NCBI GenBank assembly: GCA_963971425.1
Contig: OZ020520.1
Coordinates: 23,640,754 to 23,704,753 of the forward strand
Direction: 5' to 3'
DNA: 64,000 nucleotides
Source: Bryoerythrophyllum caledonicum
Taxonomy: Eukaryota > Streptophyta > Bryopsida > Pottiales > Pottiaceae
In this document: piece after piece, positions 2,999-35,396 of the stretch
Numbering within the stretch: the first letter of the stretch is position 1
How the letters are laid out: each line of letters opens with the position of its first letter
Program-made: the position numbers and the translations under genes
The notes under the pieces: model-generated
Told to the model about the DNA's origin: nothing
Database searches by the model: none
The model's input: only the letters and a program-made list of their open reading frames with translations

Positions 2999-5900
2999 AT
3001 CTTCACTATGGAGGGGAGAACTGGAGTGAAGGGAGAAAATTGGCTCACCAGAGGTTAGATTTGGAAGAGGTTGTGGTGAAGATCTTCTTAGAAGAAGACA
3101 CAGCTCTTCACATGGAAGAAATTGACAAACTTGGTCAATTGGAAGGACTTGGGAGCGTTGTTGAGAAGGAAGGAGGGGAGTCTCCTTCACAGGGGATTCA
3201 ATAGCAACCAAGGGTGGAAAACCCTGCTCTAAAAGAACCGAAGGAAGTGGTGACTAAGGACACTTGGAAACCAAGAGTGAGCCTGGCGGATGGAGCAGTG
3301 GAGGTAGAGGAACATGAGTTCTTGAAGGAGTATTTAGATTGTTTTACTTTCAGTTTACATGATTTGGAAGTGTTGAAGGGGCAAGAAGTGCGTATTAACT
3401 TAACCGACGAAGCACCAATTTATCGAAAGCCATACAAGTATAGCGACATGGAGCGAAAGATGATTCGTGCTCGCACAGAAGAATTGATGGCTGCAGGGTT
3501 GGTGGAGTTGGCTTCTCCAGATTATGAGTATGCATCAGCAACGGTTATGCCATCCAAGAAAGACATTTATGGTAATTGGACTCAGAAAATGATGTGTGGT
3601 GACTATAGGAGAATTAATAAATTTACTAAGTCAGACCGTTATGCCATGCCAACTCCAGAGGAGAACTTTGAGGCCATTGGCCATGCCAAAGTATTTAGTA
3701 CGTTGGATTTACGCTCTGGATACCACCAGGTTGGATTGAGAGATGAAGACAAGGAGAAAACCGCGTTCTGGGGCATTGACAGAGATGGGAAGGACCGGTT
3801 GTTTCAATGGAAGTTTCTACCGTTTGGATTGAAGAATGTTCCAGCAGAATTTCAAAGGGTTATGGACAGAGTATTCTCGGGGTTGAATTTCGTGAGATTC
3901 TATATTGATGATATCATTGCCTTTAGCAGGAATCAGAAACAACATAGATTACACTTAATGGAGGTTTTTGCTAGATTGAGGCTTCATGGATTAAAGTTGC
4001 ACCCTGGTAAGTGCAAATTCTATTTTGATCACATTGAGTATTTAGGCCACATGATTTATCCAAGTGGATTAGGTGTGGTAGCTAGCAAAGTGGAAGTAAT
4101 GATGTCTATTCCTAGACCACGAGATGTTAGTAGGTTGAGAGCATTTCTGGGGTTGTGTAACTATTATAGAAAGTTTGTCTAAACTTTCAGTGCTATTGCC
4201 AAGCCTCTAACCATGCTGACAAGGAATGATCAACCTTGGATCTGGGAAGATGAGCAAGAGGCGGCCTTTCAACAATTGAAAGACCGTTTGGCATCAGCAC
4301 CAATACTTCGGAGGCCTATAGGAGGAAGGACATACCAGCTACACACAGATTAAAGCTCGTTGGAGATTGGTGTAGTACTGACGCAAATGGATGATGATGG
4401 CAAAGAATTTGTGATTGCTTATGCCAGCCGGTCCAACAACAATGTTGAGGCTCAGTATAGCTCGTATGAAGGGGAATATTTGGCTGCGATCTAGGCAATT
4501 GTTCATTTTCGGTGTTACCTTTATAGTAATGAATTTCTGTTGGTCACAGATCATCAGCCTTTGAAATGGTTGATGGAGTCTGATAAATTGACAGGGAAAC
4601 TAGCACGGTGCCTTGATGTTCATGGAGTATGGCTTCAAGGTGGTTCATAGGGAAGGTTTGGTATATATGGATGCTGATGGCCTTAGCCGCAATCCAATTC
4701 CAAACCAAGAAGATGATACAGGTGCTAGGTGGCATACTGAGGGTGAAACCGACCCGTTGCCAGGTTGGCATTGTTCGGGTTTTCTAGGAATATTGGCATT
4801 GAATGGAGACACCATCGGGGAAGCTACTGTGGCCACAGTAGATGAGGATGGAGGTGAAGAGTCTGGAGGCGCCAAAGATATCCATGAAGGCACGAATGTG
4901 ATGGAGTTTTTGAAGGATGGAGAAATAGTGGCTTCATGGTCTCATAAGGAGAGAGATCGGGTTCTACAATGAGCTAAGAGGTTTGTGTGGGAGAGGACTC
5001 ACCTTCTAAGATTGTGGCGAGATGGTACTAAAAAGGTAGTTTCAGCTCCAATAGAAAGAGTGAAACTGATTAAGGACATAGATGAGGACCTTGGACACTT
5101 TGGAGTGCGAAGGACTTATAGTCATTTTCAGATTCACTATTGGTGTCGTGGAATGCAATCCCAAGTGCAAGCTTTGGTGGCCCGGTGTATGGTGTGTGAC
5201 CGGGTACGAGCGTCTTTTAACGCTCCAATGCCTCAGTTACAACCTTTGCCAATTATGGGCTTAGGATATAGGTGGAGCTTGGATTTTGCAGGTCCACTGC
5301 CAGTGACACCTCGACACAACAAGTGTGTGTTGGTAATCATCGAGCATTTTTCGAAATGGATGGAGTTAGTGGCATTGCCTGATAAATTCAGTGAGAGGGC
5401 CGCTCATTCGTTTCTTAACCATGTTCTGAGTCGCTTTGAAGCTCCAGCAGAGGTACTCACAGACCAAAGTAGAGAATTCTTGGGTGAGTTTCAGACGTTG
5501 TGTGAGCAAGCGATGATTGATCATCGCACTACTTCGAGGGATCACCCCGAAGCAGATGGATTGGCGGAGCGCATGGTGCAAACCGTCAAGAGGGGGCTCC
5601 GGAAGTACAACTTAAAGAAAGGACATCACCAGGATTGGGATTTGCAGCTACCGTGGATAGCAATGGGCTATAGGTTCAACAAACAAGCGTCCTTGGCGTC
5701 TTTTCACCTTACTATCTATTGTTTGGAAGGCACCCGATTTTACCGAAGGCCATTCAAGCAGATGCTGACACCGTGTTGGCTAACATGGACAATTCAAACA
5801 CGTGGGCTCAAGTGTTTGAACAACGTGCAGAGTTGTTCAAAAGGGTGATGCCTATGGCATTGGAGAACCTTTCCATTGCTCAACATCGAGATACGTTGCG

Positions 5901-6327
5901 CTATGCTACAATACGGGGAGGTGGTTATCGACCACAGGTTCGGCGTTTCACACCTGGAGACTATGTGTATTTGCAGCAAGCAGCGCCCACCACTTTGGAT
6001 GTGACAGTAGGAAGGGTAATCTTGAGAGTTTGTGAGGTAAAGGACTCAGGGGTGTTAGTGTTGGAGGGTCATGATGGCAAGATGTGGAAGGACCACACAC
6101 GTAATTGTGCGCCTTGCCACTTGCCACACATTGATGGCACAGTACACCATGGTCTCTCTCACATCTTTGCTGGATTACGTTGTCGATTGTCTAGTAGTGC
6201 CAAACGGGCAGCCACTATGGTTATTTGTGACATATGTTCTACGGAGTGGCATTTAGAATGCTTATTTCCACCTCTTTTGGAGGTACCAGTGGGTCAATGG
6301 TCTTGTCCTAAGTGTTTAGTACGTTGA
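2999..6327 (+). pseudogene. Ty3/gypsy pol pseudogene: RT, RNase H, integrase, PHD-like finger
   Basis: This encoded a retrotransposon polyprotein that copies RNA to DNA and integrates it. Reverse transcriptase spans about 3400-4180, with LPFGLKNVPAEFQRVMD and the catalytic YIDD at about 3901-3912. RNase H follows (about 4200-4610), with TD, YEGEYLAA and VTDHQPLKW. Integrase spans about 5060-5700, with a His/Cys zinc-binding region ending RCMVC, then SLDFAGPL, LTDQSREF and DGLAERMVQTVK carrying the DDE residues. The usual Gly of TDxGxEF is Ser. The C-terminus ends in a PHD-like CDIC...WHLEC...CPKC block. In-frame stops lie at 3202 (TAG), 4180 (TAA), 4351 (TAA), 4492 (TAG) and 4970 (TGA). Frame changes occur near 4605 and near 5707, the latter in a T-run. 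It is inactive. No gag or protease is visible. Confidence 0.9.
6170..6327 (+). other. C-terminal PHD-finger-like domain of the Ty3/gypsy integrase
   Basis: The last 50 or so residues contain VICDICSTEWHLECLF, then a PPLLEVPVGQWSCPKC-type ending. This matches the second half of a PHD finger (Cys-x2-Cys, Trp-His-x2-Cys, Pro-Pro-Leu, Trp-x-Cys-x2-Cys). In the first half only one Cys of the expected first pair is evident (CRLS), so the present copy is probably damaged. PHD fingers bind histone H3 tails. By analogy with integrase chromodomains, this one may once have targeted integration to chromatin, which is inference. Confidence 0.65.
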
Positions 6328-11518: not shown

Positions 11519-12066
11519 GAATAATTTTCGGAAATAATTCAGTTTCATTCAGTTTGAACTTTGAACAGCTAGCATTTTATTGCACTACTTTGCCATAAGC
11601 CAACTTTATTGTACAAATCAAAATATATAACAAGCATTTTGGAGAAGCGACCACGGTGTGTTTGTCGTATCTTCTGACAACTGACAACTCTTTTTCGTTC
11701 ACATGATTATTGCCCTAAATGTACTCTCTTCTTACTGTTTGTACATTCTTTGTACAGTTGATCAATGTCAATACAGAATGTATGCTCTTCGTAGATTTAG
11801 TGCTTCAGCCACCTTGATTTTGGGTCTAGGGTTGTCGAGAGGTCGACTTGTTTAGACATAAAGGCAATGTGCTCGACGTTTAGGGCACTGTGCTTGACCT
11901 GTTTCTGATTGTAAGTGGATTTAGGGGATGAATTTTATAGAGATGATGGCAATGTACTATTCGTACTTTGCTAGGAACTAAGAGGGGGGCCACCACACAT
12001 TGGGTCCGGGGGAGGTTTTGATTTTTTTTATAAAATTATAGTTTGTGTAGGGTTGTGATTATTGCA
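11519..12066. other. Intergenic DNA, no gene recognised
   Basis: This is 3' flank of the F-box/kelch-like gene and 5' flank of the kinase-like pseudogene. It is T-rich, with no repeat or motif that can be named. Confidence 0.4.
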
Positions 12067-13666
12067 ATGGCCACTGATCGTAATACTGGAAAGCGGCTCG
12101 CGTATGTTGATTTAGATGCTCCAGATGCATCTGAGCTTCCACCTACTAGTGTTGCGGAGTCGAGCCGCAATCCTTCCAATGCACCGAAGGCACCGTCGAA
12201 GAGGGCGAAGCAAAAAATGTTTGCGCACGAGAAGGATGCCGGTTATCCACCAAAGGAGTATACCGCATTTCTTTGAGGTGTGGCAATACAATACTACCGT
12301 TGATGGTGTGAAACTGACGTGGTGCGATTCCGTCAATTTTATTTGGAGAAGGGAGAGCCAGGAATTATGTGCCTACAGGCCGACCTACAGGCCGACCTCC
12401 AGTCAAAATTCGAGCGCGCTCTGGAGAGTTCTGAATTATTCAAGGATGCATATGGCATGTATCACTATGCCTCATTCATGGAGAGAGTAATCACTCAATG
12501 CACGAGTAATGCATTGCATGTATTCGATTGTGAGGTGAAAAAACCTTGCGGGGGCCAACATCAGCCACGGGACTTGGAAGTCCTCAAGTTCCTCGAAGAT
12601 GTGAAGACCACCATCGGCAGGTTTTTAAGCTCTTGTACGAGAGGTATGCCTTGGAATGAACAAGCGATGAAGTCAGCCATAGAGGCGCATATGTTGCACA
12701 TCGTGCAATTTCTTCCAGAAGATATCGGAGTTTATGGACTTTCCGGATATGACGCCGTTGGTGGATACGGAAAGGTTCGGAAGGTCCGCATCGTGGGTGT
12801 GCGAGCCATTTCGGCATACATAGAGTTTGCCGAGAAAATGCCAACGGCGTCTCATCCGAAGGAGAAATTTAGACAACGGTCTCACGAGGCCATGATATGT
12901 CATGTTGCACACCCACGAGTTATAAAGTTTTGGGCGGTGAATACAAAGAATATGGAGGCGTATACATTGTGGTGGAATGGTGGTAGCTGGGCCCATTTTT
13001 AAAACCGTCGATTCAAAGGCAAATCCGGTGGCTTCGAGCAACTCAATCCTTTCAGCTCCATATATTTCGGCGGAGGATACAACACAAATCCTAGCCTTCC
13101 GGAAGAATAGAGCAAGACTTGCTTGGGCTTTGATGTGCACCATGGCCCAAGTCCACAAGGCAAATGTCATTCACAATGACATCGCTCCCACAAACGTGCT
13201 TCTCCACTTTCCTCTAGAGAAACCAGGGTCCGTCTTCATTGGCGTTTGTGATTGGGGAATTGCGAGCCGAGTATCACACAAAGAGCCATCAAAATATGGA
13301 TTCCGGACAGACACGGAGCTTGACAATCAACGCCGTAGACGACATTGGGTAGCTCCAGAGTTGTTTTACAAATTCGGCCCACAAGATTCGGAAACGGCAT
13401 TGGATGTGATGCAGCGGCGTCACCAATACACCCAGCTCGCCGATTCGTACTCCGTTGGGTGGATGGCTAGAGCGATTTGGGAGAAAGAATCTGACTCAAC
13501 ATTCTTCAAATCAACCGTCAACTACGCAGCTTTTCAAGTGAAGATCGAGAAATTACTGGAGCGAGATCCCCTCAAACGTCCAACACTCTGCAAAGTGGTT
13601 GACGAGCTAATGGCTAAACCATTCAACTTTGAAGTTCCGGACGCTTGCTTCCGCTATGAGATATAG
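12067..13666 (+). pseudogene. Protein-kinase-like gene, broken
   Basis: Most kinase subdomains are visible in order. They are a glycine loop GGYGKVRKV (about 12760-12780), IEFAEKMP with the ATP-binding Lys, and RSHEAMICHVAHPRVIKFW with the C-helix Glu. The catalytic loop reads HNDIAPTNVLL near 13169, and CDWGIAS sits in place of DFG near 13247. APEL, DSYSVGW and LLERDPLKRP follow. His-Asn-Asp replaces His-Arg-Asp but the catalytic Asp is kept. The N-terminus is Ser/Pro/Lys-rich. The frame is broken by TGA at 12274 and TGA at 12301, and by a one-base shift between about 12977 and 13000 in the hinge region. An unrecognised intron could explain one break but not all three. The ATG at 12067 is the first in frame. 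Confidence 0.75.
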
Positions 13667-13829
13667 ATATTTTGACTTAGCGTATTGATAGTGAAGGTTT
13701 CAATTGTTGATCATTTTGCAATATGTACTAGCATTGTGATGTAACGGTGCTTTTTGCCCATCTCGTGATAAATAAAAGATTAACATTTTTCATACACATT
13801 GCGACATGAAGCTCATGCATGCTAAGAAG

Positions 13830-14225
13830 TGAAAGAGCGCGCGCGACCCCAAAGACCATGGGCGAGGCCTAGCCCCTCCACGAACGCGCCCAATCCTCCC
13901 CCACGAACGCGCACAACCCCTCTAGGAACGCGCGCGACCTTGGCCGGACGTGCCAACCCCTCCAAGTATGCGCCCGGCCCTTCACCGTGCGCGCCTCGCC
14001 ACTTGCGGTACGCGCGCGGTCCTCGGTGCACGCGCCGAGCCCCTCACGGTACGGGCTGGGTCCACCCTTGTACGCGCCCGGCCCAACACGGGACGCACCT
14101 GGTCCTCCCATGTATGCGCCTGGCCCCTTCAGTGCGCGCCCGGCCCATATCCGCACGTGCCCGGCCCTTTCAGTATGCGCCCGGCCCATCTCCATACGCG
14201 TCCGACCCCTTCACGCGCCCGCCCC
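13830..14225. repeat. GC-rich minisatellite (TACGCGCCCGGCCC-type units)
   Basis: Units of roughly 20-25 bases built around ACGCGCCCGGCCC run in tandem. The segment 13950-14225 matches 31155-31405 almost unit for unit, so both arrays descend from one sequence and are not independent expansions. Long open frames on both strands (Arg/Pro/Gly-rich) are by-products of the repeat. Confidence 0.92.
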
Positions 14226-14332
14226 CTTGCGTGCATGCGGGCGACCCTGTTGACGACTTGTCAGCCACGTAGTTGCCTTTGTGGCAATGGGTAAATTGAT
14301 TTACCTCGAGTCATGGTCAAACTAGGGTTGAC

Positions 14333-14444
14333 CCTTATCGGACGGACAATAGCCTCTACCGGACGGACATCCGAACGGACGGACACTATCGGACGGACGG
14401 ATGGACACTACCGGACGGACGGACGGCCAAACAACTCTGTTCAC
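14333..14444. mobile_element. Relic of a hAT-like element end (CGGACGG subterminal repeats)
   Basis: A run starting GGTTGACCCTTATCGGACGG and continuing CTCTACCGGACGGAC matches, in order, the right subterminal region of the complete hAT element at about 35520-35600. Its outermost bases (AACAACTCTG) are only a diverged version of that element's ACAACCCTG end. The matching left end and target duplication were not found. Confidence 0.5.
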
Positions 14445-15343
14445 GTTGCAGCCTTGTTTGCGCCACGAATCCGAAGGCTACGTGCCGAGCAAATTTGTCG
14501 CCGCCATGTACGAACGAAAGTGCAAGGCCCCCTCAGGTGGAATACACCGCGACTGCACATCAAAGAAGACTCTGAAGAACTCCTTAGCTTACGGAGAGAG
14601 ATCTTCACATTTGCAGTTCGAAACTGCGTCTGCCTCGAATCCTTGTAGTACGAATCCGGTGGACCTCAATCCAAGAGGGCACGCTTTGAGGCCTTGCTGA
14701 CGTTGTAGTCCTTCTTGAATTTCCGCCAGTTGGCCTGAATAAAAGCTTCCGCGTTGTTGAATAGGCCCAACTCCGGCCTGATCACTTGTAGCTCCATTCG
14801 AGCGACCTCCATCCTCTTCCTCCGATCGACCCAGTCCTGGGCGGTGTAGCAATCCTCCAACACAGATTTTGGCTGCTTCACAACCACCTTAGGGTAAGGC
14901 AATTTCCGCGATGGCCCTGATCGATTGAGAATGTCCTTACATATTTTCGCGTGATCGGCCTCGGTCATGTTGCCGAGAAACTTGAAGAACTCGCGCATCA
15001 GCACCTCATCTTTCTCTGGGACCCAAAACTTGGCGTCCTTGAACTTTGCCAAGGGCGTCAAAGTTGAATTGACGTTGATGAGGTCGCCATGTGCCGTCGA
15101 AGAGATGACATCCGACCAGAGCTTGAAGGTCTCATCGGTCGCGGTGATGATCTTCACCTCGTTCGTAATCGAGAGCTCCTTCGCCTTTCCGACTTTCTTG
15201 AGCGCTGCCTGGCTCTTCGCAACGCCAATCATTGCGAAGCGCTCTCTAACCGCGGTCAAAAATGATTGCGCACAACATAAACATGGTCAAATCGGTTTAT
15301 AATTATAGTAGAAAATAAACATGTCCAGCTGAGTCCGGAAACT

Positions 15344-15372
15344 GCAAGTTAGCTCAAGTCAAGCTAACTTGC
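15344..15372. repeat. Palindrome with TAGCT core, in apparent intron
   Basis: Eleven-base arms GCAAGTTAGCT and AGCTAACTTGC flank a 7-base centre. It is one of the dispersed TTAGCTC palindromes and lies in the probable intron of the 14.7-16.9 kb gene. Confidence 0.85.
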
Positions 15373-15437
15373 AACCTGAGAGCATACAATATAAGCGATT
15401 TGAATCTTTATACAACATTATACAGATAGTGAGCAAA

Positions 15438-15472
15438 CATGCACGTTAGCTCGAGTCGAGCTAACGTGCATG
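15438..15472. repeat. Perfect 35-bp palindrome, in apparent intron
   Basis: Seventeen-base arms (CATGCACGTTAGCTCGA and its complement) surround one central base. The core is shared with the other TAGCTCGA palindromes, but the outer arm (CATGCACG) is unique to this copy and is still perfectly paired. Confidence 0.93.
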
Positions 15473-17364
15473 ACCTTGGTTAAAGAATATTACCTCAAAC
15501 TTCTTGTCATTGGCAATTTCAAGTGCCGTTCTTTGACCTGACCTGTGAAACCTGCAAATGCCTACGGCGGAGTGCTTCGGCTTTGGTCTCCCAGCTTAGA
15601 TCCACAAAGCCCGAGAGCCAAAGATATTTGTTGCCCACGTCGGCTTGAATTGGACCAAGTAATTTACGTGATTATAATACGCGGATATCTTCCTCAGCTT
15701 CCCTGGATCCTCCGTCCAGACAATGTAACACTGCCATGTTCGGAAGTGCCCTCTCATTACCTCCGGGACGTTGTCGTTTATCATTGTCTTTGATGCTGCA
15801 ACGCTGTGCTGGCCCTTCATGATATAGTAGTCGCAGTCGTTGAGGTCCTCAACCGTCGCTGGCATAACTTCCACCTTGGGCATGACCTAGAGAGTGTGCT
15901 TCTGCATCTTGACGGGCATTTCGAGGTAATTATGCTTCAACTCCTCCATGCCCGAAGGTTTGAATGCACGGATCGTCCACTCCGGCGGTGCATTATGCAG
16001 CCTCATCATGTCGAGCTCGAACTTCTTCTTTGTCTCCCTGAAAGAAGCAGCTCTCACACTCCGTCCAGAATTTTTGGTAAATTTGTTGGACGTTGCTGTA
16101 GTCAATTGCCTCTCCGAACCCGAGCACCTGAGGGAGCTCCGAGAGTGCAGAGACCATCAAATTGGCCAACTCCTCCTCTGAAACGAGCTTTGTCTTCTTC
16201 CTGAGAGAGGTCTCCGGCTGCTTGGCAGCTGAGTGCTTCTTGACAGGGGAAGCAGACAGTGTGTTGCGCAGGGTGCTTTGACTTGTTCTTGCACCCCGTG
16301 TTCTAACCAGTACAGACGCTTGACTCAACTCGTGGCTACTGGTCACGGCCCCCGAAACTATCGAAATTTCTATCGGGCGCCTCGCCGCAATATTTTTTGC
16401 CTTCTCTAAAGTGGCATAGGTATTCATTCTCGATAGAATGACGTGGAGTTTATTCGCTACAGACTCTACTTTAAGCGGCTAACCACTACTAGTCTCCCAT
16501 TTCTTTAGTGAGATTTTGTGGTCAACCTGAGCCACTATTTCATCAAATTTGGACCCCCTAAGAGAATCGACTAGATCGTGGATACAAAAGGGAGATAAAA
16601 CATTGTTCACTACAATAGTAAACATAAAAGGCTCTACGGACTCAGAGGTTGTCACACACGACAACTTAACGTGATCGTTATCTTTGTGGACTACATCAGT
16701 AATTTTGGTCGTGAAATCGGTGTGCTGGGGTTCAACGATATCACCAGCAAAGGTCCGACCAAACACTAGATTATCCGTATAGGTGGCCCACAGAAGCGTC
16801 CACTTCAATGTCATTGATGGGTCCTTGAGCTCCCAACAATCCAAGTGGTTGTTGTCGTCTCCATCGTCATCATCAAGGTCGATGGGCTTTTGCTGGAAGA
16901 AGTGCTGCAGCTGAGTTACCATCCTGCCCCTCTCAGTTCTGCACACACACCAAAACCGAGCACATATATTAGATTGCTAAATTGATCATCCAATTAAGAT
17001 GGAGAGGTTACCAATTAAGATGGAGATGTCGAGCTAAAGTGTAACTAAATACAAAGTATGTCAATAATACTCTGCAACAAAATATAGTCATTTGGAATAT
17101 TTTCCTAGACCCATTCAATCAATTCATGCCTACCTCACGTTCAACTCCCAAAGCTGTGAAAAAGCTTACGAACTGATCCAATCACTCACGAAGCTCACTC
17201 TTTAAGGTTCTCAAGTGGTTGTAGCGGGACTTAAGCTCATGTACGATTTCTGAGAGGTGAACGAGAAGTAGACATGAGTTGGGTCATCGGTAAATTCAAC
17301 CTCTGGCATGTTTTTTGGTCCGAAAGAAGTGGTGTTCGAGTTGTGGTTTAGGTCATTTGTTATA

Positions 17365-17804
17365 CACTTTAGCTCGATTCGAGGTAAAGTATGTTTGCTT
17401 TGATGAATAAAAAGATGTTTTTTCGAGAGGCAGAGATTGAGAGTAGATATTATGATCACTCTAGCTGGAGCCGGGCTTTAGTGCGCCATAGACGCATTCA
17501 ATCATCAATGGTACATTTTAGCTCTAGTCAAGCTAATGTGCGAAAAGAGATGCACTGGTCTTGTACAATTCAGCTCTACTTGAGCAAAAGTGTATTGGTT
17601 TAATGCATCTTTGTCCGCACTTTAGCTCAAGTCGAGCTAAAGTGTAGCGATTAGTGTGCTTTTTTGGCCACACTTTAGCTCGAGTCGAGTTAAAGTAGAG
17701 CCAAAAGAGCACACTGTTGGCTGCACTTTAGCTCGACTTGAGCTAAAGTGCGGCCAATAGTGCGCTCTATTGGCCGCATTTTAGCTCGACTCAAGCTAAA
17801 ATGT
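17365..17804. repeat. Array of palindromes, 52-53 bp period (core CACTTTAGCTCGA)
   Basis: Palindromes of about 27-29 bp start at about 17365, 17458, 17513, 17566, 17618, 17671, 17723 and 17776. The last six are 52-53 bp apart. The arms read CACTTTAGCTCGA and its complement, with the early units decayed. The spacer between the last two units is itself palindromic: CGGCCAATAG at 17751-17760 pairs with CTATTGGCCG at 17767-17776. The final stretch is thus two alternating nested palindromes. It lies upstream (5') of the minus-strand gene at 14.7-16.9 kb. No coding potential is evident. Confidence 0.88.
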
Positions 17805-18018
17805 GTTGATTGAAAAGCTTATTTATTGCAGTTTGTGCAGATGTGTCTTTCGTTAGATGATATTCAAGGCGTAGGGTTTAGGGCTCATGGGTGAGAGTAT
17901 GGATTTTACCTTTCAGCCATTGATTATGAACTTTAATCCGAGACAAATTCTGTTGGAACTAGACGTTTTGCAAGAACAATAACAAATCCACACACACAAT
18001 CAATCAAAGTAGCACACG

Positions 18019-18392
18019 GAAACCAGCACATTGAAACCAGCACATTGAAACCAGCACATTGAAACCAACACATTTAAACCAGCACATTGAAATCAGCACA
18101 TTGAAACCAACACATTGAAACCAGCACATTGAAACCAGCACATTGAAACCAGCACATTGAAACCAACACATTTAAACCAGCACATTGAAATCAGCACATT
18201 GAAACCAACACATTGAAACCAGCACATTGAAACCAACACATTGAAATCAGCACATTGAAATCAACACATTGAAAATAGCACAAACCAACACATTGACACC
18301 GATACAAACTAGCACAACCCATTACATTGAAACCAACACAAACCACCACAAACCACCACAAACCACCACATTGAAACCAACACATTGAATAC
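18019..18392. repeat. 14-bp minisatellite (GAAACCAGCACATT)
   Basis: About 26 tandem 14-base units, with variants such as AACCAACACATT and AAATCAGCACATT. The Cys/Phe-rich minus-strand frame over it is a repeat artefact. Confidence 0.95.
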
Positions 18393-18591
18393 ACAAACTT
18401 ATCTACGTGCTCACACATATATCAAAAGCAATGCTACACACATGTAATGTTTCAACACATTATATCAAAAGCAATGCAAGACAGAATGTGTGCACTTACC
18501 TTTAAGACTGAGAAACCCGATTCCTAGAGTTGCAAGTTTTATTCCTCGTTCACATCAATCCTCCGCGCACAGCCGTTTCAGACTCTACATC

Positions 18592-18750
18592 CTCACAAAC
18601 TCACACAAACTCACACAAACTCACACAAACTCACACATACTCACACAAACTCACACAAACTCACACAAACTTACACAAACTCACACAAACTCACACATAC
18701 TCACACAAACTCACACAAACTCACACAAACTTACACAAACTCATACAAAA
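18592..18750. repeat. 10-bp minisatellite (TCACACAAAC) with 60-bp higher-order period
   Basis: About 16 decamers in tandem. The variant TCACACATAC occurs at 18631 and 18691, and TTACACAAAC at 18671 and 18731, so six-unit blocks of 60 bp were themselves duplicated. Overlapping Thr/His/Asn-rich frames are artefacts. Confidence 0.93.
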
Positions 18751-19823
18751 ATCCCTAAACTCCAACGCTATAGTATACACAAACTCATCTACGTGCTCAC
18801 AAACTCACACAACCAAAATCCACACGTCCTACAAACCCTATCCACACAAGAGCAAAGCGCAACAGAGAAATTGCGCAGAAAACCCTAAATTCCAGCATAC
18901 TCAAACTCAACAAACCCTGTAGATAACGTAACTAACACAAACCGCAAAGACGCAAAGACGAAACGACGCATAAACTCACAAAACTAAAACAACAAGCTGT
19001 AGAACTACGACAGCAACAAACATAAAACTTCGACAGCGACAAAAAGAGAAACGAAAACTCGCGCCACGATATCGTGGGGGTACTTCCTGGGGCACCTAAA
19101 GCCGTGGAGGGTCGAAACCCTGTAGCCGTGTGGTGCTCCCGAGATACCCTTGAGATACCCTTTGCGAGATTGGGGTGAGACCCTCGGGTATTAAAGGTGG
19201 ATGCACTACAAATCATTCACCTTCATTATTGATACGCGGAATTTCAAGAAGTCAATTTAATCTTACTAGAATAAGTTCAAGATATTATGCGCGTTTAGTA
19301 TTTCTCTACTCGTAAATTTCCTACACAATTTATCTGAGCCATTAACACTACAATTTTGCTTATTCTGGGGCAACGAGCAGGAAGCAAAGAAAAGTGATTA
19401 TTTCCAATTTCAGTTGTATGATCTCAATTAAAACTTATAAATTGACATTTTCTCAATAATACACAAACTTGGATTGCACGGAAGTGAACGATTATAGTGT
19501 TTAGTGTTAGAAATAGGATTATAGTGTTTAGTTTTCTTTCATGCTTTCAGTAGATCAGCTGGCTTCGACTTGACTCGATTTCAATTTCTGCATTATACAA
19601 GGAGTAAATTCATTACCATCGGTATATATAAGTTCCTCCTACACCAGTTATTAGGTGAAGCACATTTAAGAGAGTTTTAAACCTACGATCTAAGATTCTA
19701 TTACTTTGAATTCAAGTTTTGCTTCTTTGTGAGTTTGATATTAATTACTATGAGAATCGAACAGACAATAAGTTTGTTAAGACCACATCTTGCAATAGTA
19801 TAATTTTAAAATGAATGGCACTG
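18751..19823. other. No gene recognised
   Basis: Mostly AT-rich DNA. A short GC-richer block near 19060-19190 contains GAGGGTCGAAACCCTG, which looks like a tRNA T-arm, but no full cloverleaf can be built around it. Confidence 0.4.
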
Positions 19824-19923
19824 CACACTTTAGCTCTTTTGGAGCTAAAGTGTGAATATTTTCTTCTTGGTTCCCTACATTTTGTGATGGTACACACTTT
19901 AGCTCTAATAGAGCTAAAGTGTG
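19824..19923. repeat. Two palindromes (CACACTTTAGCTC arms), 70 bp apart
   Basis: CACACTTTAGCTC at 19824 pairs with GAGCTAAAGTGTG ending at 19854. A second copy spans about 19893-19923 with a different centre (TAATA). They belong to the TTTAGCTC palindrome family, with the outer arm CACAC/GTGTG. Confidence 0.88.
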
Positions 19924-19969
19924 AATTTTTTCTTTGTTTTTCACTTCATTTTGCTTTTAGTGTAACGGT

Positions 19970-20403
19970 ACAAATAGTGTAGTTAGAGCATCTCCACCCG
20001 TGACGGGGAATTTTCCATGCCAGCGGGAGAGGTGCCCAAGTTTAAGATGACGGGAGGGGGATTACCCTTTCCCCTCCGCACCGTCCCCGAATTGGCCATT
20101 CTAAGGAAACACCAACGCTCGGTGCTGACGCCGTAATTGGCTAATTTTTTGGGGGGGTTTTATTGTTTTTTTTAATTCTCTCGTATCATTACATGATTGA
20201 ACACATGCTCCCGGGGAATTTTGGTGTCCCCTGTACTTTTCGTGAATTTACTGTTCAGAAGAACTAAAGCCGCCACTCCGGTGGGCCGAAACACCGGCTT
20301 GGGCCTCGCAGAGTGGGCTTTACCGTGTTTATTCCTACATTCCGGCATTTCTCCCGGATCCTCTGCCCCGGTGGAGATGCTCTTTTTCTAGTACACTATT
20401 TGT
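19970..20403. mobile_element. Small non-autonomous element with terminal inverted repeats
   Basis: GAGCATCTCCACC at 19986-19998 is the exact reverse complement of GGTGGAGATGCTC at 20370-20382. Outside this, ACAAATAGTGTA (19970) pairs with TACACTATTTGT (ending 20403), so the inverted repeat extends outward with a short unmatched break. The interior of about 400 bp is non-coding. GAGCATCTCC termini are common in plant miniature elements. The flanking TTA and TTT triplets are only a near-match for a 3-bp target duplication, so the superfamily is left open. Confidence 0.65.
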
Positions 20404-21387
20404 CAACAAGTTGGCAATTAGTTTTAGCCACCATTGTCGTGAATATTATCCCTCATTCGTTCACCTATTGCAGTTCATCTTGTAATAGCCCTCAATCAAA
20501 ACTCTACCCTAGCACACAAATTTGTTACTTGATAAATAGTGTTAGCTCAGAATCTTTTGCCTACCGGTCGCCATGCATTTATTCTTTTTGTCTCATCTTC
20601 AACCTCAAATTCAAATCGTCTTATTCACAACTATTCTCATTCCCATCTCTTGCATTCCCTTTACATTATTTAATATTATCTAATGAATATTTAATGTGTA
20701 ACCATATATTTGGCCAATAACTAATGACTTTGTAATGAATTTTTATACAATATATAATGTATATTTGTATATCTGTAACTTTTATGAACAATTAAAGAAT
20801 ATTTAAATATTATTTAATGAATCTTTAGAGGTTTAAAATTATATTTTATGACAATTTAATTAACATTTGTATATTTAATGATTATTTATAGAGTATTTAA
20901 TGTACTGTTATTGAATAGTTAATGAATAGTGCATAATTTTCTAATGTAAAATCAATGTGTATTTGAATCTTCAATGAGTATTTAATGAGTATTTACTGAA
21001 TATGTAATGCACATTGAATGCATATGTGATGGATATCTAATGATTATTTTACTTGTATTTCTATATTTATTGTATGTTTAAGTTTTTTCCTTTTCCAATA
21101 TTCCTTTCTTTTCTCACTTTCGTTCCCAGAAGAATGTTCTTATATTTCCAATCTTCTACTTGTAGTTTCATTTTCCCTCCATATTTTACATTCTACTTTG
21201 TCCAATTTTTGATATTTTCCTTTTGCTCCATACCTACGTCCTATTATTCCCAAGTTCTTTCTTGCAAATTCTTGTTTTTCTACATGCACTCAACCCTTCT
21301 TTACTTTGATGCTCAAGATGTAATCAAATCATCATTAAGGTTTCATACAGTAATTGTCCACAAGTAAAAAAATTTATGTTCCACTAT
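20404..21387. other. AT-rich DNA without a recognised gene
   Basis: Short words such as TATTTAATG recur throughout. Phe/Ser/Tyr-rich open frames at 20313-20720 and 21053-21367 are composition artefacts of T-rich DNA. Confidence 0.5.
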
Positions 21388-21510
21388 ATACTTGGATTGA
21401 CATTTAGTGTAGTAGTTGATATTTAGTGTAATATAGTTTTGTCACTACACTTATTGTAAATTTTACAATTAGTGTATGGATTCCTATTTAGTGTCCACTA
21501 CACTAGAAGC
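21388..21510. repeat. Dispersed repeat of about 115 bp (copy 1)
   Basis: Blocks such as ACATTTAGTGTAGTA, TTTTGTCACTACACTTA, AATTAGTGTATGG and ATTTAGTGTCCACTACA are matched in order by the sequence at about 35145-35255 inside the hAT element. The copies are diverged but clearly related. Confidence 0.65.
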
Positions 21511-21539
21511 CATCTTCTGTGTACTGGAGCTACATAGTG

Positions 21540-21880
21540 CATTTTGGCTTTCTAATCCACTCCATTTAGTGATGGTGCACAATTTAGCTCTAGTAGAGCT
21601 AAACTGTGCGTATTTTCTTTTTAGTTCACTGCACCTAGTGATGGGGCACATGTTAGCACTACTGGAGCTAAAGTGTGTGCACAAACTCCTTTTAGTTCAT
21701 TGCACATAGTGATAGGGCACACCTCTGCTAAAAACCGAGTTGATGTATGTGCAATGTGTATTTCCACTTCTTCAAACAATCATTTTGAACTCCGTACTTC
21801 TCTTTATGGTTAAGTATTCCACAAGGTGAAATAGTAATCTTTTGAATTTTAAAAGGATTTTCAAAATATGTAGACCTAAA
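21540..21880. repeat. Palindrome-bearing direct repeat, left copy (about 70-bp units)
   Basis: Units begin GTGATGGTGCAC or similar at about 21570, 21640 and 21710. They carry GCACAATTTAGCTCTAG and its complement at 21577-21609. The segment then continues through CCACTTCT, TCATTTGAAC-like sequence and TATTCCACAAGGTGAA. The same order of blocks occurs at 27695-27990. The two copies bracket the DUF7869-like pseudogene in the same orientation. Confidence 0.7.
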
Positions 21881-23100
21881 TCTCCAATAGTAATATTGAA
21901 AAGCAAAAAAATATGACGATCTCCTAGTCTTCAGTGGATATGAAGTCTAAGTATTCTTGGTACCCTAAACCAAAAAAATGTGACAATGTATGAAAATGTA
22001 TGAATTGGGATATAATGTTATTTTTCACTAGAAAAATAACATGTTTTTCCACAATATCAAACATTCTAATATTACTTCTATGTATTGAAAATATCACATT
22101 CCATACTGTGTCATAGCAAAAGGTTTTTAAGTTGCTCGACGTGCCGTCAATCGAGAAGTTTCTCTTTTGGCTAGCATAACTTTTATTGAAGACGTTCAAT
22201 GAGAAAATAAATTACTTAGAAATATGCCTCATGACTTCTATCATCCTTCTACAAAATTTTGAGAATTTAAAATATAATTTGCGACCATTGGAACGTGCTC
22301 AAAAACTAATTATTCTTTTTTTGCATGTATAAATAAATTCAAAATTACTTACATTATGAACATTAAATTATGCTTGATGCACTAAGTGATACACTTTGTA
22401 TTAGTCATATTTTATATTTTGATTATCCTTTTTTTTGTCATGAGGAGGTCTCTCCATTTCTTGTTTAAATCTTTTAATATTGTTCCACTCTCTATGTTTT
22501 ACAAATGACAAAGTCTTTAATTTCACGTCAAAACATGAAATAAATTAGGCATGGTCAAGAATTCCTCCATCTTTCATGTCATGCTTAGATTGCCACACCC
22601 TAAACTCATGATAATACAATTTGAACTCAAAAATAAGAATTTTAATCCAACTATTAGTTTGCGCACATTTCCAGTCTTTGAGTACTTAGTGGATAGTAAC
22701 CAATTTCAATTCCAAATCCAGACCATGGGGACACTTGGGATTCTTGCAAATGAATGAACATTCTAAATTGATTACAAAATAGTAACATTGTGCACTTTTT
22801 AAAAACCCCAAAGAAATGGTGTCCAAAGCATGTTTGAATACATACTTTTTTGCTCAAAATACACGTGCACATATAATATGTTTTTTGTTTTTTTTAATGC
22901 TACTTGTTCGTTAAGGTCTTTGCTTTCAACTTTATAGATAAGTCCTATTTGGATTGTAATACAAATTCTTTTTAATCATCTCAATATCTTCTCTACATTT
23001 ACCTATACCTTAGTTGAAATCCAGAATTGTCAATATCCAGAATATTAAAAGTATTATTAAATTGAAATGAATATCATCACAAGGATAATACCTAAACCAA
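21881..23100. other. AT-rich DNA without a recognised gene
   Basis: No reading frame with recognisable motifs and no clear repeats. Confidence 0.5.
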
Positions 23101-23102
23101 GG

Positions 23103-23255
23103 ACCCTAAACCCTGAACCCTAAACCTGAACCTAAATTCCAAACTCTAAACCCTAAATTCAAAATCCTAAATCCTAACCCTAAACCCTAAATTCAAAATC
23201 CTAAATCCTAACCCTAAATCCTAAACCTAACCGTAACCTTGAGCGTTACCCTAAC
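23103..23255. repeat. Degenerate interstitial telomere-like repeats (CCCTAAA)
   Basis: Many CCCTAAA heptamers are interspersed with variants (CCCTGAA, TCCTAAA, CCTAACC). A 32-bp sub-repeat containing CAAAATCCTAAATCCTAACC occurs twice. CCCTAAA is the plant-type telomere unit. Position and decay suggest an internal relic and not a chromosome end. Confidence 0.85.
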
Positions 23256-23860
23256 CCGTGTATATTACTTGCATGTGCGAGTATATTCGAGGTATGTATC
23301 CTTCCTTATTTTAGTCAACCGGAAAATAGTTGATTCAGTTCCCGCCGGGATTTCAAATTTGCACTTTTAAGGGGCTGTGGAAAAGTGTCCTCACGCCAAT
23401 CCTGAAATCGTAGCCCGTAATTGAAACGGTCGTGTGTCCATGACTGACCTCGGCGAACCTCGCTCAGTTTCTTCATTTATTTTCTCCTTAGTTTGGTTGC
23501 TGCGCAAGGTTGGTCAGTGGGAGGCTTGGAGGTGGTACAACTGTGGGAGGTTGAGGAGGGCATTATTTATAGGTTGCGCATGGTTGAGCAGGGTGCTTGT
23601 GGGAGGCAACAACGCACCGGTTGTCTACTTCATAAGGTACACAAAGTTTACTTCTTGCATTGTCCGTGTATTCTAGCAATTAGGATGTCACAGTGATGCT
23701 TATTGCTCTGATTCCAGTTGCTACTTTGATTTTGAAGCATCACTGCGAGTTTCTTGACGACTAACGCAAAGATTTGGGTTCAAGAATACAAAAAGGCAGG
23801 TTCATAGGCTGAAGAGTTTGTCCATATGAAGCCCGAAAATGACGCCGAGAATCACGGAAG

Positions 23861-24267
23861 GACAATTTAGCTCGAATTGAGCTAAGCTGTCATTCCATAA
23901 TATTAACGACAATTTAGCTCGACTCGAGCTAAACTGTTGGTGGAAATAAAGTAAGACAGTTTTGCTCGAGTCGAGCTAAGTTGTCATACTATATTGATAA
24001 TGGCAGTTTAGCTCGAGTCGAGCTTAACTGTCGTTGGAAATAAGGTAAGATAGTTTAGCTCGACTCGAGCTAAACTGTCGTACTATATTGATAACGACAG
24101 TTTAGCTCGACTCGAGCTAAACCGTCATACCTTATTTCCAACGACGGTTTAGCTCGACTCAAGCTAAACTGTCATACCTTATTTTCTATGTCAGTTTACC
24201 TCGACTCGAGATAAATTGTCATACGGTCTAATAGTCAACATTTCAGGTCGGGTCGGGCTAACATGTC
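23861..24267. repeat. Nine-unit palindrome array with an exact 47-bp period
   Basis: Units start at 23861, 23908, 23955, 24002, 24049, 24096, 24143, 24190 and 24237, each exactly 47 bp after the last. Each has a near-perfect palindrome of about 31 bp (GACAGTTTAGCTCGA plus complement) and a 16-bp spacer. Spacers 2 and 4 share GGAAATAA, spacers 3 and 5 share ACTATATTGATAA, and spacers 6 and 7 carry the reverse complement of the GGAAATAA type. The last unit is decayed. The array sits about 270 bp upstream of the DUF7869-like pseudogene. It resembles a CRISPR array in geometry only. Confidence 0.95.
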
Positions 24268-24354
24268 ATTTTCAAGGGTGAGATTATTTCATTTTTGCAT
24301 TAAAAGTGATGGCATGAAATTGCATTCTTGTCATATAATACCATATGTGTTTAC

Positions 24355-24380
24355 CTCGAGTCGAGCTAAATTTGCCTGTT
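24355..24380. repeat. Single decayed palindrome of the TAGCTCGA family
   Basis: TTTACCTCGA followed by GTCGAGCTAAA lies between the 47-bp array and the pseudogene start. Confidence 0.7.
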
Positions 24381-24539
24381 CTACAATGCCAATTCAGTTG
24401 AATCCAAGTTATTTTTCAAGCGCTAGACCTTTCCTCGATTTGAGCTTAATTACCCTCTTCATACGCTTCTTCATTGATGTCCATTCCTACAAGGTATTCA
24501 CCCATACTTATTGGAAGAGATTATATAATATTTATCTCA

Positions 24540-27395
24540 ATGGAATGCAGGATGTTGTCTTTGGAGGGCGACGATGTTAATGTTGACGCTCCCGTGAACC
24601 TAGACCTTTCTAAGTTTGATGTTATTCCGCGCCTTCTCTGGGTTGGGATGATTGTTTCGCTTCACAATGGTTCGGGTGTTCGCGTTGCGGAGGGGTTGGT
24701 TTGCAATGTCCGGTCCAGTGCAATTCTACGTTCCTTTGGTCCTCTTGGGGATTCTGATGTTGTAGAATAGGTGTCCAGTACTTTTGTTCAGGAGAAAGCT
24801 CCTAATGAATGGAGGTACTTGTTTAAGTCCTGACCAATTCAACAAGTCTTTTTGAACGGTGTAAGTCTCTTCCATCATTACCTAAGGGAGGTTTACAATG
24901 TCTGGTTGGTTGAGCATAACAAACCTCTAGGTGGGAGCTCCCGTTCGTACGACAATTCCTCAAGGAATACGCCTCCAACAGTGTCCATGAATGCTGAATT
25001 CTTCATGACCCCTCATTCCATTAACGCAGTTGCGAGTAATAGTTGTTGCATTCAAAATTGTGTTCAACACTACCCTAGAGATAAAATAAAAGTCCTCCGG
25101 GCGCGCTTGTACAGTGAGATCATTGTGCAGTTCAGAAATCATATCAAACTAGACATTCATAGACAGTTTCATAGAAACGCTGCGGGTAGGAAGGTTGTGA
25201 ACCTAGAGGGTGTGGACATTTGTGCCCATGCCTGGATGAAAATCATGGCTGTAGGTTCGAGTACTTTCTATCGGAATGCAAAGGACGCTGCCGCTGGTTA
25301 TGCGGCTTAACACCATGGAAATACCGGTTTGCGTAAGCCTAGAGGTCATACGGTTGTGGCTACTACCGCTCTTGGAGCCATCCTTGATAGACATGCAGAC
25401 GACATGCCTCACAAGTCTCGTGTTCTCTCATCTGGCGAGAAGGTTGTGGCAAAGGTCCTTCCTGCAAGTTTTAAGTGGAAGGATCAGATACCGCTTCTTG
25501 ATGATCATCTCGTTGATTGTGGATTGCCGCCAATCTCAACCTCAAGCTTGAGTAAGATTCGGCGAGTGAGCTTCTCTGAGTACTATGCCAAGAAAGGTAA
25601 AGACAACTTTGCCCGTTGTTCTACGTGTGACAAATACCAGGATCAGAAGAAGCTTACTCAACCTGGAACACAAGCATCACTACTATCAGTGCTATGGCAA
25701 AAGAAGATGTAGGTTCACATCAATTCTGCTTTTGCACATTGGGACTTGTACTACCTAAACCAATTTCGATCAAAGTCGTCGCCCCAGGAGGTTTTAACCA
25801 TCACGCATGATAAGATGGATCACTCAAAGACTGCCTCCCCAGTTTTTTCACATAAAACAAAGCATTTAGATGGGCTTTTGAAGTTGCTTCTTACAGTCAC
25901 AAGCATGCTTGCCCATGGTCATGTGGATCAGCGTTACGCCCATTACGGCCTTGATTTATACTTCCATGATGCCAATAACATGGTTGGATCGTTCGCAAAA
26001 TTATTGCGTAACCTCGAGGCGCTTCCAAAGTCATCGTCCCGGCAACTCTTTCCAGAATCTATTTCTCATCCATTGTATGCGGCGGTATTACGGGGTGCAG
26101 AGATGTGTTTGGATCCATTAGGGCAGATTCCAGATATCCCAGTTCCAAGGAGGCCTTTGCTTCCAATATTGAACGTGCAAATGGACAATGCTGTTGGTGA
26201 TAACAAAAATAGATTTTTTTTTTCTGTTTTTGGTCTCTCCTTGTTGCAAAACGCATCTTCCGTGAGGTATATGTTAATTTCATGCTAGTTGATCATACAC
26301 ATGATGATATGATGCATTGTTTGGACGTTGGAGTATGACACTGACGAAGGAGAGTTTTCCAACCATTCCTTTGTTCATGAGGTCGTTTATGAAAAATGAG
26401 AGTGTTCCCACAATCCCACATCTCATCCAAGAGGTTCTTGGCTTTAAGAAGTTAATTGGGGATATGATTGCGGATGGTGATGAAGCTTTGTAGGGTCATT
26501 CAAAGGCTCATTAGTTCAAGTTTTATGTGGACTCAAGTGGTTGTCCGGTAATGAAGTATAAAATCCTTTGTCATGATGAGGATTGGCTTCCTAAGGGAGG
26601 AGAAGGTTATGGCATCAAATTGTGGAAGGAGGATTCTAAAGGAAGGGCTTTATGGCCTCGCGGAGAACCTTATGCATTGAAGCCTTCTACGATGCGGCAT
26701 CTCCTTGAGGTGGTGAAGGGACTTTCAAGATTCATCGATCACTGGGAGCAATCATCGCGGGAGTCTGTTGAAGCCAGATCACGTTTTGAGCCGCTACTGT
26801 ACTATTGGCACGACGTTAGAGATGCTCTGACTCTTCCAATGGATATGCCAATATCATTGGAAGAGGACTTTTGGCCAACGACGCGAATTTCCCATGCCAT
26901 TGAAGATGAGTTCTCAGCAGAGGGTGAGGTTTGCGAGGAGTACCGTGAAGATGAGCATTTTGTTGGCCAGAGACGCGATCGCCCACCTCATTCTTTTAGA
27001 GGTGGCCGTGATCTTTTCGCTAGCTATTTTGTTGCATTGCGGCCTTGTGATGGAGACAAGCGCGTGTTTTGGATTGCTCAAGCAATTTCAGATCCTAACT
27101 CTAACCCGGATATGCGAAACACCGTCCGTATCCAATTCTTCTGCCCTATATCGCGCGATCGGGATGTTTAGAAGTTCTATAAAGATTGAGATACAAATTG
27201 CAACCTTTACTGGATAGTTGGAAAGGGGATAGCCATAACGTGGGAGAGTACCGATTCAATCTTGACGACATGGAAACCTAGGTCTTCAAAGAGGGATGGA
27301 GGTCATGTGCAAGATTCAACTACAAAAATTCCGAAGGGGCAAGTAGCAATTATCAAGGCCTCCTTGGAATCACTTGCCAGGTCCGAATGGTAATA
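24540..27395 (+). pseudogene. DUF7869-like (probable transposase) gene, heavily broken
   Basis: The translation matches, from memory, a large family in charophyte, moss and lycophyte genomes. Recognisable blocks are MLAHGHVDQRYAHYGLDLY, HDANNMVGSFAKLLRNL, LPILNVQMDNAVGDNKNRFF, HTHDDM, FPTIPLFMRSFM, VDSSGCPVMKYKILCHD and WPRGEPYALKPSTMRHLLE. The QMDN and HTHDD motifs look like the acidic centre of a transposase-type nuclease, but that function is inferred. In-frame stops lie at 24768 (TAG), 24831 (TGA), 25308 (TAA), 25710 (TAG), 26491 (TAG) and 26512 (TAG). Frame changes lie near 26235 and 26320. It is bracketed by the palindrome-bearing repeats at 21.5 and 27.7 kb, which may mark the same element. 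Confidence 0.75.
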
Positions 27396-27694
27396 GACTT
27401 AGATAAATGGACTTTCTTTTTCCTAGATTTTGGATTCTGATGCGTGATGCTTCATGTAGTATGGTTAGATCCATTGGTGCTGAGATTATAGGTATTTGTA
27501 TTCGATTACACTCTGTATGACTATAACTAATGTTAATGATTGCTATGAAATATTCTCTCCATTGTTTTTGCGTATCAGTGATAATTTGTAGTATGTTTTT
27601 GTTCTTTTTTAAAATAACAATGTGGTAAATTGCTTCTAATCTTAAAACCAATAACACCAGAAACTGCCTTTATGGTAAATGATAGAAAGTAAAT

Positions 27695-27990
27695 GTTGGT
27701 TTGCACTTTAGCTTTAGTAGAGCTAAAGTGTGAGCAAATCTTCTTTTTAGTTCACTGCACTTAGTAATGGTGCGCACTTTAGGTCAAGTAGAGCTAAAGT
27801 GTGTGTAATTGCTTTTTTGAGTTCATTGCACCTCTAAGTGATGGGGACACTTTAGTTCGAAGAGAGCTAATGTGTGTGCAGCTTTTTTTCCACTTCTGAA
27901 CACCATCATTTGAAACTCGTTACTTATTTTTTTAGCTAATGTATATTCCACAAGGTGAACTGAAATTCTTCTGGATTAAAAAGAGGCTCA
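27695..27990. repeat. Palindrome-bearing direct repeat, right copy
   Basis: GCACTTTAGCTTTAGTAGAG, then CTAAAGTGTGAGC, with two more decayed palindromes at about 27772 and 27845 (spacing about 70 bp). CCACTTCTGAACACCATCAT and TATTCCACAAGGTGAA follow, matching the left copy at 21540-21880. Confidence 0.7.
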
Positions 27991-28440
27991 TCAGAATATA
28001 TTTAGCTAATTCTCTTACAAGTGGCTTTATATCCGTCATTTAGCTCACTTTGAGCTAAATTGGAGCATGGTGTTAATCCGGGTTAGTAGGTTCAAGAGAA
28101 TTTTGTAACTTCTAAGGCTTCAGTGTGAATATTTAGCTATTCATATTCAATGAACACATGTGGTATAAAATAAGTGTTGACTAATGTGTTTTTCTTTTCA
28201 ATATTATAGTTAGATTTGTAATGTAACCCTAAACTGTAGTACTTATTTTTCTAGGGATTTTTGTAGTGAATATTACCTCCCAATTTAATGGAAACTCATA
28301 TCCGTTCATAGTGTAAAGTTTAGATGTGCACTTTAGCTCTTATGTTCTACATGTGTTAATTTGGAAGTCGCTAAATCTCCCAATATAACGAATATGGTGT
28401 TAATACGGTCCCCTCCTCGTCCACGAACTGTACCCTTTTG
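27991..28440. other. AT-rich DNA with one further palindrome
   Basis: CATTTAGCTCACTTTGAGCT at about 28037 followed by AAAT is another member of the palindrome family. No gene is seen. Confidence 0.55.
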
Positions 28441-30954: not shown

Positions 30955-31154
30955 NNNNNNNNNNNNNNNNNNNNNNNNNNNNNNNNNNNNNNNNNNNNNN
31001 NNNNNNNNNNNNNNNNNNNNNNNNNNNNNNNNNNNNNNNNNNNNNNNNNNNNNNNNNNNNNNNNNNNNNNNNNNNNNNNNNNNNNNNNNNNNNNNNNNNN
31101 NNNNNNNNNNNNNNNNNNNNNNNNNNNNNNNNNNNNNNNNNNNNNNNNNNNNNN
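30955..31154. other. Assembly gap (200 N)
   Basis: Exactly 200 N, so probably a placeholder of arbitrary size. It abuts the GC-rich minisatellite, which likely caused the break. Confidence 0.99.
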
Positions 31155-34435: not shown

Positions 34436-34585
34436 GGTGTGCACGTGTGAATGCAAAATTTTGGCATGGATGGATAAATTAGACCTCGCACAACGCCGAC
34501 ATCCAGCTCAATGAAGAGAAGGTGGATAGGAGTATGCGAGGCGGGGACAAATGAGGTCCCCCATCCATTAAAATAGTAATCCGGT

Positions 34586-34700
34586 GGGGACGGAGACTTC
34601 TCCGCCCCTGCCTTGGTATGGGGCGGAGACGTCCCCGCCCCTGCCTCGGTAGGGGCGGAGACGTCTCCGCCCCACCAGGGCAGGGGCGGGGACGTTTGGT
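34586..34700. repeat. GC-rich palindromes at 32-bp period (array 1 in hAT)
   Basis: Units centred on GACGTC start at about 34588, 34620, 34652 and 34684. The third, at 34652-34673, is a perfect 22-bp palindrome with arm GGGGCGGAGAC. The linkers are about 10 bp (CTGCCTCGGTA type). Confidence 0.9.
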
Positions 34701-35255: not shown

Positions 35256-35310
35256 ATTTTAGTTTACCAACATAGTGTCAATAGTTAAACACTATTAACT
35301 AACTCATGAA

Positions 35311-35396
35311 GGGGCGGAGACGTCCCCGCCTCTGCACTAGTAGAGGCGAAGACGTCCCCGCCCCTTTATGGGCAGGGGCGGGGACGTCTCCGCCCC
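35311..35396. repeat. GC-rich palindromes at 32-bp period (array 2 in hAT)
   Basis: Units start at 35311, 35343 and 35375, exactly 32 bp apart, each about 22 bp and near-palindromic around GACGTC (GGGGCGGAGACGTCCCCGCC type). Confidence 0.92.

Follow-up and report, generated by a model that had tools for sequence, protein, structure and literature searches.

A 47-bp palindrome array in a moss genome is a module of an abundant DNA transposon of about 19 kb that carries a DUF7869 gene

In this work, we examined a stretch of 64,000 nucleotides from the moss Bryoerythrophyllum caledonicum (hereafter the window) and found that its odd 47-bp palindrome array is a defined module of an abundant mobile element, of which the genome holds 2,410 matches to the terminal inverted repeat (TIR) and 6,048 exact sites of the palindrome core. 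The array-bearing element is, with near certainty, an abundant DNA transposon of about 19 kb, because it has TIRs at both ends and is bordered by exact 4-bp target site duplications (TSDs). What the array does within it is less settled, and we give about an even chance to the reading that it consists of gene-proximal, repeated, two-fold-symmetric candidate binding sites for a protein of the element.

The array comprises nine gapless units that start at 23861 + 47k, exactly as a sequence-only reading of the window had described them, each made of a 31-bp palindrome and a 16-bp spacer; TRF, run on the window, likewise returned a period of 47 (23861-24224, 7.7 copies). The palindromes had been called near perfect, which is true of units 1 to 8 (12, 13, 12, 13, 14, 14, 13, and 12 of 15 arm positions paired) but not of unit 9 (start 24237), which is degenerate at 9 of 15. 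Across the array, 112 of 135 arm positions pair, against maxima of 55 to 58 for any start in six first-order Markov windows, and local palindromes with a score of at least 12 number 14 in the window versus 0, 0, 0, 1, 0, and 0 in six Markov windows. In order, the spacers are A-like, B, A, B, A, B', and B'-like, followed by two unrelated ones. Two alternating types, inverted in the right half, had been proposed; this is so for spacer B (gttggaaataaggtaa), which recurs as its reverse complement in units 6 and 7, whereas spacer A is never inverted and the last two spacers belong to neither type. The array lies inside the transposon, ca. 280 bp upstream of a broken DUF7869 gene. Telomere-like repeats of the CCCTAAA type also occur within the element (23091-23236), about 0.6 kb before the array.

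Evidence for the host transposon came from a search of the same genome (437 Mb, 894 contigs) with the 407-bp array as the query. Among the best 40 of 528 first-look candidate places, which were the ones scored, the 39 other than the window matched at 79 to 90% identity. When 20 kb was fetched around 10 of these 39, homology extended at least 2 kb to either side of the array in all 10 (with a 1.7-kb interruption in one), and 8 of the 10 ended at a common right terminus. The association of arrays with an element, offered earlier as a genome-wide expectation, was therefore borne out, since the array travels with the element in 10/10 other fetched copies; it is fixed to a mobile element and is not a decaying minisatellite without such a link. 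Three copies continue leftward past 14440, the point at which the window copy breaks off, and the left end, reached in two of them, is an inverted copy of the right terminus. These two complete copies measure 19,031 bp (C1, near 51.97 Mb) and 18,497 bp (near 59.09 Mb); both are flanked by TTAG as a 4-bp TSD, and both have a 24-bp TIR at each end, which begins AACACC (AACACCATATTCG...). Allowing at most two mismatches, the TIR matches at 1,206 and 1,204 places on the two strands genome-wide, and the reversed control at 0 and 0. From the first 100 places listed, facing ends 16 to 20 kb apart were picked by eye; 11 such pairs were seen and 10 were read, of which nine have an exact 4-bp TSD (TAAT, CATG, ATTA, CTAT, AAAT, GACA, AATG, CAAT, and TATT). 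The tenth pair consists of two left-type ends and is probably not a single element. The features of the window copy are as follows (evidence in parentheses).

14440 to 28401, no strand: left-truncated transposon copy, 13,962 bp of a full length of ca. 19 kb (shared right terminus, complete copies, TIR, TSD)
14666 to 16976, minus strand: leftward ORFs of the element (ORF list; Pfam on the three longest window pieces, no match)
15341 to 15472, no strand: two left-side palindromes, with 17/17 arm pairs in one of them (palindrome scan)
17368 to 17803, no strand: second array of palindromes, in front of the leftward ORFs, at steps of 52-53 bp (TRF and palindrome scan)
19824 to 19953, no strand: palindrome pair, step 69 bp (TRF and palindrome scan)
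21567 to 21721, no strand: palindrome pair, step 69-71 bp (TRF and palindrome scan)
23861 to 24267, no strand: palindrome array of nine 47-bp units (TRF and arm-pairing statistic; found in 11/11 aligned copies)
24350 to 24370, no strand: one further palindrome, after the array and before the DUF7869 gene (palindrome scan)
24552 to 27171, plus strand: broken DUF7869 gene, probable transposase (ORFs; several in-frame stops and a frame change)
27703 to 28059, no strand: right-end palindromes, step 71-73 bp, plus one at 28039 (TRF and palindrome scan)
28378 to 28401, no strand: right TIR, 24 bp (complete copies and genome-wide TIR search)

Several other features of the window and of the family's distribution were seen along the way. 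Adjoining the truncated left end, positions 11954-14404 match, at 88% identity, sequence next to another copy and represent a further dispersed repeat, within which lies a protein-kinase frame (12941-13663). Retroelement genes (reverse transcriptase and integrase) followed by a PHD-finger frame occupy 3205-6324, and a run of 200 N at 30955-31154 is either an assembly gap or a withheld stretch. A second, GC-rich palindromic tandem repeat of about 32 to 33 bp (AGGGGCGGAGACGTCTCCGCCCCTGCCT type) is present at 34582-34695 and 35310-35396; it is part of another abundant repeat (most of the best 40 of 3,947 candidates show 91 to 97% identity). The array-bearing family, an old one, is enriched on C1 (65.2 Mb of 437.4 Mb), where 25 of 40 arrays and 26 of 40 right ends are located (p of ca. 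1e-11 and 1e-12, respectively, for lists that are top-scored and not random). The C1 arrays are confined to 13.8-59.1 Mb, and of the 150 top-scoring DUF7869 places, whatever their family, C1 has 8, none of them between 12 and 61 Mb. Such a concentration could reflect an extensive region of low recombination or a sex chromosome.

The array was placed correctly at 23861-24267, but palindromes of the same kind reach far beyond it, from 15348 to 28049. Their core is TTTAGCTC-N5-GAGCTAAA (i.e., TTAGCTC-N5-GAGCTAA), and in the window it clusters at 15.35-15.45, 17.4-17.8, 19.8-19.9, 21.6, 23.9-24.4, and 27.7-28.05 kb, with steps of 47, 52-53, 69, and 71-73 bp; outside 14.4-28.4 kb, the window offers only two hits to the core, both at 3 mismatches. 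Of the two complete copies, one has 27 palindromes, among them an uncertain one, and the other has 22 (both counts leave out sites at stretch boundaries), whereas ca. 11 kb of flank searched for each copy has none. The sites are distributed through the element, and the outermost one is about 650 bp from the left TIR. The suggestion that the repeats are subterminal repeats of a DUF7869-like element was right in linking the array to such an element and wrong about the position, as the distance to the right TIR is 4.1 kb and that to the left one (in a complete copy) ca. 14.4 kb. A control for the exact core sites gave 0 genome-wide. The 67 distinct core sites listed form 8 clusters: six span 10 to 14.5 kb and have 7 to 13 sites each, and two consist of a single site. 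For 44 of the 67, an exact TIR is no more than 20 kb away; zones of this kind make up 1.8% of the span.

Comparison of the palindromes with one another revealed a constant inner part and a variable outer part. In 36 palindromes, 483 of 612 arm pairs hold, against a maximum of 422 after reshuffling of the right arms, a contrast that is inflated, as these palindromes were selected for at least 11/17 pairs and are mutually related. Pairs 4 to 9 from the 1-base center are nearly invariant, positions 1 to 3 are paired in 69 to 83%, and positions 11 and 14 to 17 show all four Watson-Crick pairs. Nine units are present in 10 of 11 aligned arrays and ten in the other, with 1-bp indels; the palindromes are kept and the spacers of units 1 to 4 vary between copies, which, read from the alignment, is turnover by duplication and exchange. 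When homologous sites were followed through dispersed copies (15 sites, 116 rows, with two sites drawing paralogous rows), we counted 86 single breaks, 1 double mismatch, and 2 compensations versus 0.70 expected; because of this excess of single breaks, dead copies are, as far as these rows tell, decaying without visible constraint.

The DUF7869 gene (DUF7869 being a domain of unknown function) starts in the window with an ATG at about 24552, as judged by upstream comparison and alignment, and Pfam PF25273 is matched in the 25713-26285 piece with an E value of 3.9e-8; in a copy on C6, a 638-amino-acid frame is intact (E value, 3.3e-41). The encoded protein is probably the element's transposase, given that it is present in both the window family and a sister lineage (described below) and has acidic motifs (MHDKMD, QMDN, and HDDID in the alignment), candidates for part of an RNase-H-like catalytic core. 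A PDB search by sequence and profile gave no meaningful match to a solved structure, and NCBIfam gave none for P0001; of the five proteins scanned in total, only three had matches there, all below the cutoff (phosphatase, and for L017 by chance). A scan of viral contigs for relatives yielded one pattern-matching stretch and none that was confirmed, and the name DUF7869 turned up no publication in the library searched. The genome has 3,607 first-look DUF7869 candidate places, of which the best 150 were scored. As for the leftward ORFs, an NLI/FCP1-type phosphatase frame (L030:2157-3008; Pfam NIF; E value, 1.9e-14) is among those of the copy at 51.97 Mb, and a similar frame was recognized by eye in the sister lineage (L017:2355-3230).

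The sister lineage, to which L017 and L065 belong, carries a DUF7869 gene with 65% DNA identity to that of the window (L065, over 2,440 bp), and in both loci a period-34 array stands in front of it. An example of its palindromes is CACATTCAGCTCG-ACC-CGAGCTGAATGTG; the arms are changed on both sides (TTTAGC/GCTAAA versus TTCAGC/GCTGAA) and still pair, and the inner AGCTCGA core is kept. Arrays of 34 bp are also found in L066 and in L067, where nine units precede an uninterrupted frame of 956 amino acids (one of 20 such frames among 86 scored). The spacing is 45 and 69 to 71 bp in L068 and L070, L069 has a single 45-bp palindrome pair, and L071, a further member of the lineage, has no palindromes upstream of the gene. 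The earlier statement that unit length has stayed fixed is therefore true of the window family, bar 1-bp indels, but not of the sister lineage, with its 34 or 45/71 bp. In L017 and L067 to L070, the last palindrome ends 133 to 134 bp before the ATG. The array could belong to the promoter or to a 5' intron of the DUF7869 gene, as the triplet where a splice acceptor would lie reads CAG in L067, L069, and L071 and TAG in L070, although it is CAA in L068. Neighboring 34-bp arrays less than 25 kb apart are in outward (-/+) order in 10/10 pairs, 3.8 to 22.5 kb apart (e.g., C1:34808418 and C1:34818165), and L065 is 97.7% identical to L017 over 1,874 bp in the opposite orientation. Together, these arrangements suggest a large inverted duplication or a foldback form.

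In six other DUF7869 families, the core was found in 0/6 upstream stretches, each of which enters an open frame of 119 to 179 amino acids at the gene side, such that the gene start is probably covered. Because these families and L071 are without it, DUF7869 genes do not, as a rule, require the array. Other families carry unrelated tandem repeats, namely, direct repeats of ca. 55 to 62 bp in L039 and L040 and a 25-bp repeat in L044. Those of L039 and L040 lie upstream of the DUF7869 gene and are iteron-like (TGAGACATATGCCTCCC, at steps of about 55 to 62 bp); a possible view is that they are an analogue of the palindrome arrays.

How might these observations be explained? Each palindrome would be a candidate two-fold-symmetric site for a dimeric DNA-binding protein encoded by the element, the simplest candidate for the binder being the DUF7869 protein itself. 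Arrays close to the gene could then serve autoregulation, and the scattered sites could mark or bridge the long element or aid its recognition. Unit number would have been raised by tandem duplication, and template switching between palindromes could flip a spacer in exact register, since the flanking palindromes are each their own reverse complement; such switching would account for the inverted B spacers and perhaps for part of the arm matching. The binding-site reading is favored by the restriction of the core to the element (22 to 27 sites per complete copy and 0 in the flanks). It is also backed, on comparative grounds, by the same array position in a sister lineage of 65% identity whose arms have changed on both sides, and the second array at 17368-17803, upstream of the leftward ORFs, would count in its favor as well. 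Three considerations speak against it: the core is absent from the other families (0/6) and from L071, a dimer site does not by itself demand covariation of the outer arms, and the dispersed copies are without sign of selection. A more elaborate and, in our estimation, unlikely possibility is that the ca. 25 sites per element form a distributed palindrome code in which the core is invariant and the arms need only pair, and in which spacing varies while position and palindromy persist; this would provide a combined sequence-and-structure signal by which the transposase could find, regulate, and perhaps fold a 19-kb element.

A simpler explanation, which we consider somewhat unlikely, is that the array is a mutational by-product without function, i.e., that slippage or unequal exchange multiplied a palindrome, while template switching matched the arms and flipped the spacers. 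The turnover of spacers between copies, the one copy with an extra unit, and the in-register inversion of the B spacers are what such a process would leave behind, as are homologous sites that lack a selection signal and the unrelated tandem repeats of other DUF7869 families; moreover, template switching between inverted repeats is described as homogenizing arms and inverting spacers (PMC8604942). However, a by-product does not readily explain why many separate sites, which differ in period and flanks, share one inner core, or why that core also stands upstream of the gene, in the same place, in a lineage of 65% identity.

It is distinctly unlikely that the sites are read by structure, with DNA or RNA hairpins or cruciforms being recognized, the arms needing only to pair, and the core supplying specificity. 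The use of all four Watson-Crick pairs at the outer positions would fit this, and so would the long RNA fold of the array, which is far more stable than its shuffles. On the other hand, the 1-base center and the inner pairs are needless for a hairpin loop, yet positions 1 to 3 are mostly paired; arm covariation has a mutational alternative; and none of the Rfam matches in the element attains the gathering score. The fold itself differs from the row of hairpins that had been expected of a transcript: the predicted minimum-energy structure of the window array is mostly one long hairpin (-220.3 versus a shuffle mean of -95.4 kcal/mol). Such a hairpin, if transcribed, could feed small RNAs directed against or for the element, but we regard this as very unlikely, as the long hairpin relies on the inverted spacers of the window copy, which other copies have only in part, and the 11 weak Rfam matches in 14440-28401, microRNA families among them, are all below the gathering score. 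Finally, the chance of a CRISPR or CRISPR-like array is practically nil, the resemblance in constant step and palindromic repeats being superficial: the spacers are not unique but duplicated, inverted, and common to several copies, the period varies between lineages, the array travels within a transposon, and there is no adjacent cas gene, no Cas family being among the Pfam matches of 33 ORF pieces (20 from the window; general Pfam and not a dedicated Cas library).

Candidate binding sites for an element protein remain our preferred reading of the array. With a TIR, a TSD, a candidate binding sequence, and the 956-amino-acid sister frames in hand, both the role of DUF7869 and that of palindrome arrays in giant transposons become testable.

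Among eukaryotic DNA transposons, the Sola superfamily is placed by a 4-bp TSD, and the moss element, with its TIR and 4-bp TSD, is like Sola in these features. En/Spm elements contain many short copies of a motif, direct and inverted, that are read by the element-encoded protein TNPA. The moss element is similar in having many short copies of one motif and differs in their location, the motif, the TIR, and the protein family, and binding is here a candidate property. Placement in EnSpm/CACTA fails: the TIR begins AACACC and not CACTA, the TSD is 4 bp and not 3, and the repeats are not clustered at the termini, with the main array 4.1 kb away from the right TIR and the sites dispersed. Template-switch quasipalindromes, with their arm homogenization and spacer inversion (PMC8604942), represent a mutational process and not an element, one that alone leaves the conserved core and position unexplained. 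The literature searches gave no paper on this element; the nearest parallel in the literature consulted is the soybean CACTA pair Tgmt* and Tgm1. Tgmt* is 20.5 kb long, and the subterminal repeats of Tgmt* and Tgm1 can fold into 2 and 12 stem-loops, are found no farther than 159 bp and 732 bp from TIRs that begin CACTA, and accompany a 3-bp TSD; the repeats combine an invariant submotif with a more divergent one and are discussed as protein-binding domains (PMC2613891), in a report that also names the TNPA-binding subterminal repeats of En/Spm. The moss element differs from Tgmt* and Tgm1 in its internal main array, its TIR (AACACCATATTCG...), its 4-bp TSD, and its DUF7869 gene, and it resembles Tgmt* in being a plant DNA transposon of ca. 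20 kb whose stem-loop-capable repeats are built of invariant and divergent parts.
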